Source: a gamma proteobacterium symbiont of Taylorina sp. (GTDB lineage: Bacteria > Pseudomonadota > Gammaproteobacteria > GRL18). Taken from it: a stretch of 64,000 bases of DNA. Location: positions 1 through 64,000 of the forward strand of contig JAHXIV010000081.1 of the NCBI GenBank assembly GCA_025655455.1, read 5' to 3'. The first letter of the stretch is position 1, and every line of letters starts with the position of its first letter. The position numbers and the translations under genes are program-made. Positions 16,008 to 55,798 of the stretch are shown one piece after another. The notes beneath the pieces were generated by a model that saw only the letters and a program-made list of their open reading frames with translations, had not been told where the DNA came from and did no database searches.

Positions 16008-16080
16008 GGGTCGGAGTCAAATAGCATTAAGTGCTGAATTTAATCAATATTCAGTCAATCATGTCATTTGACTCCGACCC
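16008..16080. repeat. REP-like palindrome, copy 1 (fliP-fliQ gap)
   Basis: A 15-bp perfect inverted repeat: GGGTCGGAGTCAAAT at 16008-16022 and its reverse complement at 16066-16080, enclosing 43 bases that themselves contain TGAAT/ATTCA. The same arms occur at 48623-48688 and 54884-54931. Such palindromes are usually spread by RAYT (REP-associated Y1) transposases, but none is in this window. Here it lies between co-directional fliP and fliQ. Confidence 0.85.
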
Positions 16081-16089
16081 CATACTGTA

Positions 16090-19016: not shown

Positions 19017-19080
19017 AAAGATGTCCTATACCCACAGGACATCTTTCGTTCGAGCAGACAAGTTGCTCAACTCAGCTTTA
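19017..19080. repeat. Family A two-hairpin repeat, copy at fliL stop
   Basis: Two hairpins: AAAGATGTCC/GGACATCTTT (19017-19026 and 19037-19046) and GAGCA/TGCTC (19052-19056 and 19064-19068), followed by AACTCAGCTTTA. The right end of the element supplies the TAA stop codon of fliL (19078-19080 on the minus strand). In one plus-strand frame it encodes SFVRADKLLNSAL, nearly the same peptide as the copy inside sucA. The other copies are at 27718, 46897 and 55758. Confidence 0.8.
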
Positions 19081-19626
19081 CTGCATTACAAAACTGGTGA
19101 AATAAATATTATCAATACCTTTTTTAATCTTACGTTCTTTCAGTATAGAATTAATCACTTCTATCAGTTCTGCCCTAAGTTGTTCCTTGCCTTCCGGGGT
19201 TACTATTTCTTCATATTTCTGGCCACTGAGTAATAGCACAATTTCATTACGGATAACAGGTAAATGTTTTTTAACCCCGGCATAGGCCTTTTCATTAGTC
19301 ATTGCAGCTTCAAGCCCGATCTGCATATATCTTGCCTTGCTTTTACCCTCAAAATTTAACACAAAAGCAGGTTCAAGCGGCCAGTAAGAAACTTCCAGAT
19401 TAACCTCTTCTTCTTTAGATGCCTCACCACTTTTCTCTCCATCAGCAGTCTGCTCAGTCTCAGTTACTTCAGGCTCATCATCAAAAAAACCTGTTGCAAA
19501 CAAACCACCGGCAATACCCACTATCAGTAACAAAACAACACCAACAATGATAATGATCATCATTTTCTTTGACTTTGGTGCTTCCTCTACCTCTTCACCA
19601 TCCAATTCTAAGTCTTCATCTGCCAT
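19078..19626 (-). CDS. fliL: Flagellar basal-body-associated protein FliL
   Basis: A 182-residue protein with a short acidic cytoplasmic tail, one membrane helix (about residues 23-47), an acidic linker and the periplasmic FliL domain starting near residue 75 (VSYWPLEPAFVLNFEGKSK). It ends in the typical TSFVMQ. It supports stator function. The stop codon lies in the end of a family A repeat, so the last residues are at the insertion boundary; the normal C-terminus suggests that function was kept. Confidence 0.93.
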   Translation of the reverse strand: MADEDLELDGEEVEEAPKSKKMMIIIIVGVVLLLIVGIAGGLFATGFFDDEPEVTETEQTADGEKSGEASKEEEVNLEVSYWPLEPAFVLNFEGKSKARYMQIGLEAAMTNEKAYAGVKKHLPVIRNEIVLLLSGQKYEEIVTPEGKEQLRAELIEVINSILKERKIKKGIDNIYFTSFVMQ

Positions 19627-19654
19627 TTTAGGGTTCCGTCTGTATGATTAATAG

Positions 19655-19756
19655 TTAAAAGTGCCCACAGCTTAAAAAATTGGCACGAATTATTTTAAGT
19701 AACATAAAAATGGCTTTAAATCATTTGTGTCAGTTTTTTGTTACTCAAGAGTATAT
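19655..19756. repeat. 102-bp dispersed repeat B, copy 1
   Basis: This 102-base stretch upstream of fliL matches 37851-37952 with 99 of 102 bases identical, counted by eye (two adjacent A/T differences after CCCACAGC, and one G/A). It includes GTGCC/GGCAC inverted arms and lies in the same orientation as the second copy. It has no coding frame. The left flank differs between copies: here the TGTTAC that completes the outer palindrome is missing. Confidence 0.9.
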
Positions 19757-27500: not shown

Positions 27501-30344
27501 ATGCAGCAGAAAAATAAAGAACTGAATAAAACTTCTTTCCTGTTTGCCGGAAATGCCCCCTATATTGAAAATTTATTTGAACAATATTGTCAGGATCCCC
27601 ATTCTATAGCAAAACAATGGCAGGACTATTTTGATCAGGTTTACGATGATAAAATAGCAACATTCCATGCCCCGCTTACTTTTGCAGAAAATGCACATAT
27701 TCTGAACAGCAATTACTTATACCCTCAGGGTACAAGTTTCGTACGAGCAGACGAGCGGCTCAACTCAGCTTTATCAAACGATTTAATTATCAATGAAAAA
27801 AAACAGAGTGCTGTCTTAAGATTACTCAATGCTTACCGGGTACGAGGTCACCAACAAGCTAACCTTGATCCAATTGGCTTGTATAAACCTCAGCAAATAG
27901 AAGATCTTTTAACACAGTTTCACCAGTTAACAGAAGCCGATATGTTACTGCAGTTTAACACCGGTTCTCTGGCGGCAGCGAATCGATTAACGCTCAGGGA
28001 TATTATCACTATTGTCAGGCGAACTTATTGCAGCAGTGTTGGTTATGAATACATGCATATTACCAAAACCAGCACCAAACGCTGGTTCCAGCAGCGCATA
28101 GAACCACTACCCCCACCTCTCTCTCAAGGCACAAAGCTCCGTCTTCTGGAACGTATTACTGCTGCCGAAGGCTTAGAACGCTATATCCATAACAAGTACG
28201 TTGGCCAGAAACGTTTTTCTCTGGAGGGAGGAGAAGTCTTAATTCCTATGTTAGACGATCTGATTCAGCAAGCCGGGAATCAGGGGATAGAAGAAGTTGT
28301 TGTTGGTATGGCTCATCGGGGTCGTCTAAATGTATTAATCAATATCCTGGGTAAATCTTCTGAGGATTTATTTTTAGAATTTGAAGGCAATGCAACGATT
28401 AAAGGTGCTGGCGATGTTAAATACCATAAAGGTTATTCCTCTAATATTCAAACAGCAGGCGGCAATGTACATCTGGTCTTATCATTTAATCCTTCCCATC
28501 TGGAAATTGTCAGCCCTGTGGTACAGGGTTCCGTCCGGGCAAGACAACAGCGTTATGATGATCTCACGGGTGATAAGGTCATGCCGGTTATGATCCACGG
28601 TGATTCCGCATTTTCAGCTCAGGGTGTGGTAATGGAGACTTTTCAGATGTCTCAGACACGATCCTTTAAAACCGGAGGCACCATTCATATTGTGGTGAAT
28701 AATCAGATTGGTTTTACCACCAGCAATCCAAAAGATATGCGTTCAACTTTATATTGCACCAGTATAGCAAAAATGATTGAGGCACCTATCTTACATGTTA
28801 ATGGAGATGATCCCGAGGCAGTGATTTTTGTTAGTCGTCTGGCACTGGAATACCGCAATACTTTTCATAAAGATGTTGTTATTGATTTAGTTTGTTATCG
28901 CCGTCATGGTCATAATGAAGCAGATGAACCCGCTGTTACACAGCCTATTATGTATAAGAAGATACGTAATCATGACAGCCTGCGTGAAATTTATACACAA
29001 CAACTGCTTGAAAGTGCAGTAATTACATTTGCACAGGCTGAGACATTGATTAAGCTTTATCGTGACCGTTTGGAAGCAGGTAAAGTTGCAGCACTCAATA
29101 TTAGCAGTGAACAGAACAACAACCAATATCTGGTTAACTGGCACCCTTATTTTAACCAACACTGGGACATGGACTATAAAACAGGTATTTCTTTAGAGCA
29201 TCTGCGCATGGTCGGAGCAAGATTACAAATATTGCCAAATGGTTTTGAACTTCACAGCCGGGTTGCCCGTATTGTTGATGACCGGCGTAAAATGGAAGCA
29301 GGTACATTGCCGTTTAACTGGGGAGCAGCTGAGATTCTGGCCTATGGAAGCCTGATTATGGAAGGTTATGAAATTCGCCTGACCGGACAGGATGCAGGTC
29401 GCGGTACATTTTTTCATCGTCACGCAGTATTGCATAATCAGAAAGATGGCCAGACTTATACCCCACTGCAGCACGTTGCTCAGGCTCAGCCGCATTTTGT
29501 GGTCATTGACTCTCTTCTTTCGGAGGAGGCTGTACTGGGTTATGAGTACGGCTATGCTACAGCAGAACCACAGGCACTGGTTATCTGGGAAGCACAATTT
29601 GGAGATTTTGCCAATGGTGCTCAGGTGGTGATTGATCAGTTTATCAGTTCAGGAGAAACCAAATGGAATCACTTATGCGGACTGGTCATGTATTTACCTC
29701 ATGGTTATGAGGGTCAGGGAGCAGAGCATTCTTCCGCACGTCTGGAACGCTATTTACAATTATGCGCCGAATATAATATTCAGGTTTGCATCCCCAGTAC
29801 ACCTGCACAGTTTTTTCATATGATTCGAAGGCAAATGGTCAGACTTTATAGAAAACCACTGATCGTCATGATGCCAAAATCACTATTGCGTCATAAGTTA
29901 TCTGTTTCCAGTTTGGAAGATATCTACAAAGGTCAGTTCCATTGTGTCCTTGATGAAGTAGATGATTTAAACAAGAGTAAAATCAAACGAATTATTTTAT
30001 GCAGCGGCAAGGTCTATTTTGATCTTCTGGAAAGACGCAGAGAACTGGATATCACTGAAATTGCAATTATTCGTATGGAACAACTCTACCCGTTTCCCAC
30101 CAGACAGTTAGAGAAAATTTTACATCAATATCAGACAGTGACAGATTTTGTCTGGTGTCAGGAAGAACCAAAAAATCAGGGTGTCTGGTATTCCAGCCAG
30201 CATCATTTTCATACCTTATTAAGCAAAAAACAAACATTGCGCTATGTTGGTCGGCCACTTTGTGCTGCTCCTGCAGTGGGTTTGTTTAAATTACATGTTC
30301 AGCAGCAAAGCCAGTTAGTCAATGAAGCATTAAAATGGAACTAA
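27501..30344 (+). CDS. sucA: 2-oxoglutarate dehydrogenase E1 component SucA
   Basis: About 947 residues; the ATG at 27501 has CGGAGA 10 bases upstream, better than the TTG at 27471. It holds the N-terminal E2/E3-binding segment ([20 protein letters not shown]), the [15 protein letters not shown] motif, ThDP site residues in [10 protein letters not shown] and [11 protein letters not shown], and the transketolase-like C-terminal half ([29 protein letters not shown]). Residues 74-92 ([19 protein letters not shown]) are encoded by a family A repeat inserted in frame in the variable linker between the N-terminal helix and the E1 core. First gene of sucA-sucB-lpd. Confidence 0.96.
27718..27776. repeat. 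Family A two-hairpin repeat inserted in frame in sucA
   Basis: The stretch matches the noncoding copies at 19017 and 46897 (shared core: TTTCGT, then GAGCAG-like arm, then CTCAACTCAGCTTTA). Here the left hairpin is TACCC/GGGTA (27720-27732), and the right one GAGC/GCTC (27745-27748 and 27758-27761). It adds 19 residues to SucA without breaking the frame. The hairpin arms differ between copies but stay self-complementary. Confidence 0.8.
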
Positions 30345-37844: not shown

Positions 37845-37952
37845 TGTTACTTAAAAGTGCCCACAGCAAAAAAAATTGGCACGAATTATTTTAAGTAACA
37901 TAAAAATGGCTTTAAATCATTTGTGTCAATTTTTTGTTACTCAAGAGTATAT
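37845..37952. repeat. 102-bp dispersed repeat B, copy 2, with outer palindrome
   Basis: Bases 37851-37952 match 19655-19756 at 99 of 102. In this copy the outer arms are complete: TGTTACTTAAAA (37845-37856) and TTTTAAGTAACA (37889-37900), with inner arms GTGCC (37857-37861) and GGCAC (37878-37882), so the left half can fold into a long hairpin. It sits upstream of the bolA start; copy 1 sits upstream of fliL. Confidence 0.9.
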
Positions 37953-41149: not shown

Positions 41150-42802
41150 TTAAGCATAGTAATCAACAATATTGACATCCACTTCTTTTGAATCCTCTGC
41201 TATTGCATCAGATTCTGAATCCTGAATATCTTCTGATAATTGTTCTTCACCTGGCATAGTGGGATGACCATGCTCATTGTTTGAACCTAAAGCAGCTCCT
41301 TGCTGTCCATTTTTATCCTGATGAGATACATTCACGTCAACTTGTGAAAATCCATTCTCATTCAGCATTTCTTTTAATCTGGGAATCGCACTTTCCATCG
41401 CATCTTTTGTCATCAAATGATGTGACGTAATATTAACCACTGCGGCTTCACCAATTATTTTGACTGTTACCTCAATAGGTCCAAGATGTGCAGGGTTAAG
41501 TTTAATCTTTGCTTTTTGAATACTATTGTTTGCCATCATGATGATTTGATTAGAAAACCCCTGATTCCAGCCTGGTGTACCCACACTGCTTTTAACTTCC
41601 ATAGCAGCTAAAGTTTGCGTTGTTGTCAGAGTATTGGATAAAGGAGTAAAATTGCCATTTAATTGAGTTCGTTCTGTCAGGATGGCATGTAATGCATTTT
41701 GATTAACTTGTGGATTTTGTACAGTATTTGATGCCGTTTTAAACTCACTAATCAGTGCCCGAATATTTTCCTGACTGGCCTTCATATTTTCATCAAAGTT
41801 TTTAACCTTAGCCACAATCTCTCCAGACTGAGCCTGCTTTCTGGAGAGTTCTAAATATTGTTGAAAATCAGAAATAATTTTTCCCGGAGCCACTTCCCCT
41901 TTATTCTCTGATGTTATTCCTGAAGCATTGCGTAAATTAATTTCGGATATTAATTGCTGAGCAGGTACTGACTGATAAGATTTAACTTGAGCTGTGGACA
42001 ATTCAGAGAATTTTTCCTTTTTGGAAAGCACATCCGCTGATTTCTTTTGTTCATGATGTAATGCATTAGATAAAGCATTGACCAGTACATTCACTGGCAC
42101 TTGAGGATTAGCTGATTGATTGACTTCCTGTACTATTGCTGGTTGTTCAGGTTTTGACTGCTCAGGCAAGTTAAGCTGTTCTACTTTTGCCTGTTCCGGC
42201 AATATCACTGCATCCGCTTTTGCCTGTTCCGGCAATATCACTGCATTCGCTTTTGCCTGCTCCGGCAATATCACTGCATCCGCTTTTGCCTGCTCCGGCA
42301 ATATTACTGCATCCGCTTTTGCCTGCTCCGGCAATATTACTGCATCCGTTTTTGCCTGCTCCGGCAATATCACTGCATCCGCTTTTGCCTGCTCCGGCAA
42401 TATCACTGCATCCGCTTTTGCCTGTTCCGGCAATATCACTGCATCCGCTTTTGCCTGTTCCGGTAAAAGTACATGTTCTGTTTTTTCCCCTTCTGCATTA
42501 AACACTTCAAGACTTGTATCAATTTCTTCAATAATATGAGTAACAGATTGATTATTATCTTGTTCACCTGGCAAGGCCTTGCCGTCTTGTGGCAAATCTT
42601 TTTCTAAATGATGTTCACTTTCAGACGATTCGGATATTTGGGCAACTTTACTTTTATGCTGAACAATCTCATTCATCAAAGCTGATTTGAAATCCCCAAT
42701 ACCGTTGCTTGCACCAGGCTCTTGAGAGTTAGTCTGTACAGCACTATTCTCGGATCCTTTTGGTACTTCTGGTCGAATATTTAATAAGGTTTCTGTTTTC
42801 AT
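41150..42802 (-). CDS. fliK: Flagellar hook-length control protein FliK with internal tandem repeat
   Basis: About 550 residues from the ATG at 42802; a TTG five codons upstream is less likely. The C-terminal Flg_hook domain is clear near residues 430-515 (IKLNPAHLGPIEVTVKIIGE, then RLKEMLNENGFSQVDVNVS). The N-terminal ruler region is low-complexity and contains eight near-identical 11-residue units of the type VILPEQAKADA plus two degenerate ones (about residues 110-215). In FliK the ruler length sets hook length, so repeat number could matter. A sigma-54 promoter lies upstream at 42871. Confidence 0.93.
   Translation of the reverse strand: MKTETLLNIRPEVPKGSENSAVQTNSQEPGASNGIGDFKSALMNEIVQHKSKVAQISESSESEHHLEKDLPQDGKALPGEQDNNQSVTHIIEEIDTSLEVFNAEGEKTEHVLLPEQAKADAVILPEQAKADAVILPEQAKADAVILPEQAKTDAVILPEQAKADAVILPEQAKADAVILPEQAKANAVILPEQAKADAVILPEQAKVEQLNLPEQSKPEQPAIVQEVNQSANPQVPVNVLVNALSNALHHEQKKSADVLSKKEKFSELSTAQVKSYQSVPAQQLISEINLRNASGITSENKGEVAPGKIISDFQQYLELSRKQAQSGEIVAKVKNFDENMKASQENIRALISEFKTASNTVQNPQVNQNALHAILTERTQLNGNFTPLSNTLTTTQTLAAMEVKSSVGTPGWNQGFSNQIIMMANNSIQKAKIKLNPAHLGPIEVTVKIIGEAAVVNITSHHLMTKDAMESAIPRLKEMLNENGFSQVDVNVSHQDKNGQQGAALGSNNEHGHPTMPGEEQLSEDIQDSESDAIAEDSKEVDVNIVDYYA
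42185..42472. repeat. 33-bp minisatellite inside fliK
   Basis: Eight full 33-base units run from 42185 to 42448, each beginning TTTTGCCTG and ending near GCATCCGC, with a ninth partial unit from 42449. Units differ by single bases (C/T in CTGYTCC, C/T in ATATYAC, and codon changes giving Thr or Asn). Each unit encodes 11 residues on the minus strand, so changes in unit number keep the frame. Confidence 0.95.
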
Positions 42803-46896: not shown

Positions 46897-46957
46897 CTTA
46901 TATCCACGGGGCATAAGTTTCGTTTGAGCAGGCAAGCTGCTCAACTCAGCTTTATCA
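46897..46957. repeat. Family A two-hairpin repeat, copy between fliF and fliG
   Basis: Left hairpin CTTAT (46897-46901) and ATAAG (46913-46917), right hairpin GAGCAG (46926-46931) and CTGCTC (46937-46942), then AACTCAGCTTTATCA. The TCA at 46955-46957 is the TGA stop of fliF on the other strand, as the fliL copy supplies the fliL stop. The plus-strand reading frame used in sucA is broken here by one stop codon. Confidence 0.8.
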
Positions 46958-48622: not shown

Positions 48623-48688
48623 TCGGAGTCAAATTTCTAATATATTCTATTTATTAGAAATTCACTATAGCCAGAAATTTGACTCCGA
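48623..48688. repeat. REP-like palindrome, copy 2 (fliE-fliF gap)
   Basis: A 16-bp perfect inverted repeat: TCGGAGTCAAATTTCT at 48623-48638 and its complement at 48673-48688, with an inner TTTCTAATA/TATTAGAAA pairing that allows a second fold. It shares the CGGAGTCAAA core with 16008 and 54884 and lies between fliE and fliF, which are transcribed in the same direction. Confidence 0.85.
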
Positions 48689-48701
48689 CCCCATTCTATT
48701 C

Positions 48702-55282: not shown

Positions 55283-55741
55283 TTAAATTCTGGCATTTGC
55301 CAATGAATCCGGCCTTTGGCCAGCTGCACTATTAGTATGATTATCAATCACATCCTGAGGAATAGCATCCCAACCTGATTTGATATCAATTAACAAGCCT
55401 GAAACTTCATCCAGCATTTCAATTGAGTTTTTTAAATTGGCCTGAGTTAAACGACTATTCATATAAACATAAAGCGATTCAAGATTTTCTGAGATTTGCC
55501 CGCCCTGAGAGTGATCAAGACTGACTCTAAGACCTTCAATAATTGAAATAGCCCAACTGATATGTTCACCTTTTTTAGCCACATCCCCATTTTTCAGGAA
55601 ACCCTTCGCCTTGGATATTTTTTCCAGAGCCCCTTCCATTAACATCTGAATCAGGCGATGAGGATTGGCAAAAGCAGCAGTACTCTGATTACCAACTTGT
55701 GTATACTTATTCATCGCTGCATGATTATTCGCATAATTCAT
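55283..55741 (-). CDS. fliS: Flagellin export chaperone FliS
   Basis: A 152-residue protein of normal FliS fold: FANPHRLIQMLMEGALEKIS near residue 25, HISWAISIIEGLRVSLD, GGQISENLESLYVYMNSRL, and the final helix LLIDIKSGWDAIP. Caps the flagellin C-terminus in the cytoplasm. It follows fliD by 125 bases, the gap holding a truncated family A repeat. Confidence 0.92.
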   Translation of the reverse strand: MNYANNHAAMNKYTQVGNQSTAAFANPHRLIQMLMEGALEKISKAKGFLKNGDVAKKGEHISWAISIIEGLRVSLDHSQGGQISENLESLYVYMNSRLTQANLKNSIEMLDEVSGLLIDIKSGWDAIPQDVIDNHTNSAAGQRPDSLANARI

Positions 55742-55757
55742 AAAAAATATCCTTTAT

Positions 55758-55798
55758 AGCTTGCCTGTTTAAACGAAACTTATACGCAGTATGTATAA
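55758..55798. repeat. Family A repeat, truncated inverted copy between fliD and fliS
   Basis: The minus strand reads GTATAAGTTTCGTTT, then AAACAGGCAAGCT, matching the left and centre of the copy at 46897; the right arm and the CAACTCAGCTTTA end are lost. The left hairpin is kept as TTATAC (55780-55785) and GTATAA (55793-55798) with yet another stem sequence. Confidence 0.65.

Follow-up and report, generated by a model that had tools for sequence, protein, structure and literature searches.

The gene for 2-oxoglutarate dehydrogenase E1 (sucA) in this genome very probably carries an insertion of a small mobile 54-bp repeat, a reading to which we give a probability of about 0.88. The account best supported for the repeat itself is a non-autonomous mobile element that would insert beside TAA. 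The sequence-only reading of the window (the whole stretch of 64,000 nucleotides that was analysed) had noted sequence shared among positions 27718-27776, 19017-19080 and 46897-46957, and this is borne out, with coordinates right to a few bases. Aligned without gaps, 27716-27776 is 84% identical to 46897-46957 and 70% identical to 19023-19083 (61 bp). The whole-genome blastn that had been proposed, run with the fliF-fliG copy as query, gave 17 matches at E < 1e-3 (best non-self match 5e-20; sucA copy 3.9e-12; fliL copy 5.7e-10), copies in other coding genes being present, and a covariance model run over the 4.51-Mb genome recovered 18 element copies. Because both kinds of search found matches genome-wide, the similarity among copies is far beyond chance. 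The copies in the window and their neighbours are as follows.

27501..30344, + strand: sucA, 2-oxoglutarate dehydrogenase E1, 947 aa, intact host ORF
27717..27774, - strand: sucA copy with flanking TTAT/ATAA (covariance model 8.5e-15; 18-aa gap in the nearest relative)
19024..19081, - strand: copy in the fliL-fliM gap, from the fliL TAA stop (covariance model 3.7e-11; fliL end unchanged in relatives)
46898..46956, - strand: copy in the fliF-fliG gap, after fliF TGA-TAA (covariance model 5.3e-16; TGATAA without the element in the relative G002)
55283-55741, - strand: fliS ORF
55742..55798, + strand: decayed copy upstream of fliS (covariance model E 0.011; blastn 5e-4)

The copy upstream of fliS, the fourth in the window, has been shortened by an internal deletion of ~13 bp. 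The two copies earlier described simply as noncoding can be placed more closely: the one at 46897 falls in the fliF-fliG gap, and that at fliL starts at the stop codon of this gene. The peptide that the latter was said to encode in the same frame does appear, reading SFVRADKLLNSAL on the + strand. Four of ~15 independent genome loci fall inside the 64-kb window (19024, 27717, 46898, 55742; 0.2 expected), which suggests local clustering (P about 7e-5, uncorrected for window choice), although the reason for which this window was picked out may account for part of it.

The unit, 54 bp or 18 codons long, reads TTAT|ACC...GCTTTAT on the + strand, and its minus-strand consensus is ATAAAGCTGAGTTGAGCAGCTTGTCTGCTCAAACGAAACTTATGCCCTGTGGGTATAA(G). 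On its native strand the layout is TAA|AGCTGAG-hairpin1-ACGAAA-hairpin2-TATAA. Three of the six reading frames are open, the third only in copies with GTACGA or GTTCGA and not in those with GTTTGA, and the copies inside ORFs use exactly these three. Head-to-tail pairs with a period of ~54 bp were found at three places (C15, C2 and C33).

The window holds other repeats as well. A 105-bp repeat, unrelated to the element, occurs in two intergenic copies 18 kb apart and 96% identical (19652-19756 and 37848-37952), and a fliK-like ORF contains about ten 33-bp tandem repeats (42119-42554) with the 11-residue unit PEQAKADAVIL.

Distribution among gammaproteobacteria

None of the family's other 23 genomes has the element. 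In the wider class, three genomes out of 369 carry it, all from other families, namely G254 (copies 91% identical, in tandem), G219 (83% identical, the copy lying in frame within an hsdM-like gene) and G365 (78% identical), a count that is a lower bound, as the best two candidates per genome were scored. A soxX/soxA gene pair, identified from sequence by eye, supports the view that our organism is a sulfur oxidiser; with three distant genomes also holding it, the element is no peculiarity of a single sulfur oxidiser. Because the repeat family is common to unrelated gammaproteobacteria, the element appears to have moved between species too. Searches of phage and plasmid records and of IMG/VR gave no element match.

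In G254, 43 copies lie in the 0.73 Mb sampled (~1 per 17 kb), from which we extrapolate a total of roughly 230 in 3.9 Mb, and ~14 of the sampled loci are in frame in ORFs. The genes so occupied (contigs L323-L422; for example L393:7986-8154, L391:4484-6699 and L400:7844-7901) include those for an NRPS adenylation domain, a ketosynthase, CusB (PF16576), a CheW-domain protein (PF01584), a glycosyltransferase and a spore-photoproduct-lyase-like protein (PF20903), the last with tandem copies. One 9.6-kb contig has three genes with an in-frame copy in each. G254 also contains a second subfamily of about 55 bp with the hairpin AAGCGG/CCGCTT, which lies outside ORFs with the exception of one related 57-bp copy inside the tandem of the lyase-like gene.

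Insertion beside TAA and the two hairpins

Seven copies start exactly at a TAA stop, those of the Crp-like, NnrS-like, xerD, soxX, nuclease-like, fliL and fliF genes, the fliF copy lying directly 3' of the tandem stop TGATAA. In six of the seven, all except the nuclease-like gene, the C-terminal residues and the position of the stop are unchanged in relatives, whose stop codon is mostly TAA; the FliL C-terminus TSFVMQ and its stop position, for instance, are the same in relatives, and G002 has kept the fliF TGATAA with no element. Because relatives keep these gene ends and stops without the element, the TAA is most readily read as host sequence, 3' of which the element would enter. Copies at a stop TAA make up seven of ~10 non-ORF loci, against ~7.5% expected if all were hit equally (P about 1e-6, an approximate value resting on the locus count and on counts of noncoding or stop TAAs in the window as a proxy).

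A target longer than TAA was considered and rejected. At two sites, the C6 gene insert (L188) and the ketosynthase insert of G254 (L391:6699), the host sequence after the right end is AAAGCTGA-like, but in the remaining right flanks no common motif could be seen by eye. AAAGCTGA resembles the element's own start; the likeness could be accidental, or reflect micro-homology during insertion or the remnant of a second copy.

Each element has two hairpins, TTGAGCAG/CTGCTCAA and CTTATGCCC/GGGTATAAG. Counted over 47 copies drawn from four genomes, pairing holds in 89.9% of pair cells, and 31 cells are doubly changed, where shuffles give 10 and slid partners no more than 7; this covariation supports both hairpins, the first of which is weakened in the sucA copy. 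The 47 aligned copies show no terminal inverted repeats, and the ends, AGCTGAG.. and ..GGGTATAA, are not inverted repeats of each other. The single palindrome proposed from sequence inspection thus gives way to two separate hairpins.

Could the element be chiefly a device of RNA-level control, its intercistronic hairpins protecting or ending mRNA, recombination having spread it and selection retained it, with the in-gene copies as accidents? The placement of seven copies directly after stops, several of them in operon gaps (fliL-fliM, fliF-fliG, soxX-soxA), is in keeping with such a role, as are the strand that post-stop copies always share with the gene, the covariation of both hairpins and the good folding of the minus-strand RNA (z -3.8). 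The shared strand, however, is explained by the TAA target alone, and the tandems, the in-ORF copies on either strand and the large copy number in G254 form the pattern of a selfish element. Moreover, Rfam gave no match for the loci searched, and no run of T follows the hairpins on their 3' side. We consider RNA-level control as the main role of the element unlikely.

In-frame insertion in sucA and other genes

Read on the + strand, the sucA copy encodes about residues 73-92 of SucA. The 19-residue insert of the sequence-only reading survives as an insertion but not in its size, the 54-bp unit being 18 residues. When relatives were compared across this region, as that reading had advised, the nearest one (G015, SucA 80% identical) was found to lack exactly 18 residues, or 54 bp, at the insert point. 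Conservation of the peptide across SucA of many genera, which would speak against insertion, was seen in none examined: the peptide is absent from SucA of ~28 other gammaproteobacterial genomes and 29 further aligned genomes. Pfam searches of SucA put the N-terminal segment PF16078 on residues 11-47 and start the E1 domain at 225, with the insert between them, and a low-confidence AlphaFold2 model (mean pLDDT 60) shows coil (pLDDT < 50) for most of the stretch 53-91, with a helix starting at 89. Both agree with the variable linker between N-terminal segment and E1 core that had been suspected, and they hint that the insert lies within a flexible linker. We infer that SucA is made with the 18 extra residues and is hardly affected by them.

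The linker is hypervariable, and the outgroup linkers are similar in total length, which makes the outgroup alignment ambiguous there; a single close relative has an alignable linker. For these reasons the sucA alignment alone points faintly to a direction of transfer and cannot settle it. The other host genes are more telling. Five ORFs of the genome carry the element in frame: sucA itself; a YdbH-like gene (783 aa) with two tandem in-frame copies, encoding KAELSSSSAQTKLMPRGY twice; a glycosyltransferase-like gene (644 aa), whose in-frame copy encodes AELSGSSARTKLMPSGY; a helicase of about 2,000 aa or more with one in-frame copy; and flgA, confirmed as such by Pfam, with the in-frame copy LLPTVHKFRLSRKTAQLSFI in its signal-peptide region. 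The names YdbH-like and glycosyltransferase-like were assigned from sequence reading, and Pfam searches gave no match for either gene.

In the glycosyltransferase-like gene a clean 54-bp empty site is found in all 13 full-length relatives (~38-65% identical), for example RTLQSDF-KDEYRPGV compared with RTLQGNF-IAELSGSSARTKLMPSGY-KAEFRPGV here. The empty site TTTTAAAGATGAATAT corresponds to the filled TTTTATAGCTGAG..GGATATAAAGCTGAGTTT, longer by 54 bp and with TAA at both ends, which could be either a 3-bp duplication or the target plus the element end. Relatives of the YdbH-like gene are without either tandem copy and FlgA relatives are without the N-terminal insert, both in less sharp alignments; for the helicase we found no close homologue at the insert. 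Because in-gene copies exist elsewhere and the empty site in 13 relatives is unambiguous, the alignments support transfer from repeat into gene, the direction originally proposed and the one to which the SucA of G015 also points.

The inserts sit where a protein might accommodate them. That in the NRPS of G254, compared with the solved structure 6mfy, falls at the gap between NPF and YRTGDLA, and that in the G254 glycosyltransferase falls between two matched stretches of GmaR (22ao). No net change of frame was seen in 21 of 22 in-ORF copies, the figure outside ORFs being 18 of 32 (Fisher P 0.0017), a contrast that is partly definitional because a frame-breaking insertion shortens the ORF; "in ORF" was judged by ORF length, and insertions that destroy a gene by breaking its frame would count as outside. 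The one in-ORF copy that departs from this has a total length of 57 bp, which again is divisible by three.

Hairpin structure, fixed length and occurrence in conserved enzymes might also bring to mind in-gene copies that are skipped by the ribosome or cut from the RNA, leaving the protein unchanged, as with the mobile bypass elements of yeast mitochondria. Such skipping or removal would not require the open-frame placement and the multiple of three seen in all in-ORF copies, and the inserts lie at protein loops and linkers; we regard it as very improbable. That the peptide is instead ancestral in SucA, the noncoding repeats being derived from sucA and G015 having lost 18 residues, could appeal to the similar outgroup linker lengths and to the single alignable close relative, but it is barely credible when no other examined SucA has the peptide, the same DNA lies in frame in four unrelated genes in other frames and on the other strand, one of those genes has its clean empty site in 13 relatives, and in distant genomes it is other genes that contain the element.

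A possible route of movement

If the sucA stretch is an inserted mobile repeat, its movement may be pictured as follows. The element would insert immediately 3' of TAA, on either strand, and, because its right end again reads TATAA, further copies could join it head to tail, each lengthening the array by 54 bp. An ORF entered in an open frame would gain 18 residues (36 for a tandem pair) with neither frameshift nor stop, since the element is 18 codons long and three of its six frames are open. Such inserts would be tolerated in exposed loops, linkers and signal-peptide regions, while insertion right after a TAA stop codon, which is common, would be harmless. The enzyme that mobilises the element would presumably be supplied in trans. 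Subterminal hairpins, ends that are not inverted repeats and insertion beside a short target lead us to infer a single-strand (HUH/Y1, IS200/IS605-like) route, which the head-to-tail growth also resembles.

Searches for a transposase, or for a larger relative with the same ends, found neither. The four PF01797 (Y1/RAYT) matches in the genome have no adjoining element-like sequence above shuffled background, the intact IS200-like gene on C23 is flanked by other hairpins, and the 0.73 Mb of G254 sampled (19% of the genome) yielded no homologue of two of these Y1/RAYT genes, used as queries. The proposal that we are dealing with a class of micro-elements moved as single strands, adapted to genes by their 18-codon length and three open frames, homing to TAA and so favouring stop codons as landing sites, growing in 18-codon steps, crossing families and reaching a few hundred copies in some genomes is a tentative one, which we think possible rather than probable.

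Comparison with known repeats

Most known cases of repeats that settle in frame in genes come from Rickettsia, together with a small number of other pathogens. Rickettsia palindromic elements (RPE) are small mobile repeats found between and inside genes, where they add in-frame peptides to conserved proteins (PMC2229807, PMC10969869); they are 105-146 bp long, carry terminal inverted repeats of 12 bp and form a single long stem-loop (PMC2229807). The present element is like them in its in-frame insertion in coding genes (five ORFs here, ~14 loci in G254). It differs in being 54 bp long with two small hairpins and no terminal inverted repeats, as well as in its TAA target, head-to-tail 54-bp tandems, use of three frames and occurrence in several gammaproteobacterial families. 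The likeness to Rickettsia drawn by the sequence-only reading therefore stands, but not as the sole precedent, given that RU-1 (ERIC), RU-2 (YPAL), RU-3, the 107-bp Correia element and QMITE1 of Coxiella form in-frame gene fusions too (PMC2759123, PMC2229807, PMC10969869). With these enterobacterial RU, Correia and QMITE1 repeats the element shares a MITE-like nature, open frames and in-frame fusion, whereas they measure about 100-200 bp and it measures 54 bp. ERIC, RU-3 and Correia are listed with terminal inverted repeats, and ERIC and Correia, along with YPAL, with a duplicated target (PMC2229807). Unlike such classical MITEs (ERIC/RU, Correia, RUP), the element has no inverted-repeat ends in any of the 47 copies. 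Classical MITEs duplicate their target, often TA. By the features tested, then, the element works like RPE and other in-frame MITEs, yet is a member of none.

REP/REPIN sequences and small IS200/IS605 derivatives are short hairpin repeats without inverted ends, thought to be moved by Y1 enzymes as single strands, and IS200/IS605 types insert beside a short fixed target. The element resembles IS200/IS605 in its subterminal hairpins, its insertion 3' of a fixed TAA and its lack of inverted repeats, but no Y1 gene with matching ends was found for it. Two REP super-families are defined by the tags GTAG and CGTC (PMC3733652). In contrast, the element consensus has neither GTAG nor CGTC, no element lies beside the RAYT-like genes, and it is often intragenic while REPs are mainly extragenic. 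A REP-like repeat of a different family (GGGTCGGAGTCAAAT / ATTTGACTCCGACCC) does occur in the window (16008-16086 and 48649-48697), and near 76022 on C19 a copy of it directly adjoins a copy of the 54-bp element.

PARCEL repeats are horizontally spread, tandem and protein-coding, with dyad symmetry (PMC2996958). The element shares tandem coding copies, horizontal spread and dyad symmetry with them, but PARCELs are 25-residue domains arrayed in ORFs of unassigned function, as opposed to 18-residue inserts in housekeeping genes. The TAACTGA repeat of Beggiatoaceae (PMC4679880) is a 7-bp direct repeat and not the element. A literature search by element sequence and peptide found no description of it.

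With 18-residue modules in SucA, a ketosynthase, an NRPS and an efflux pump, the question of how selfish DNA gives rise to new protein sequence becomes directly testable. The element is, in addition, a small and sharply defined substrate, with its ends, target and hairpins in hand, for finding the enzyme that moves it.
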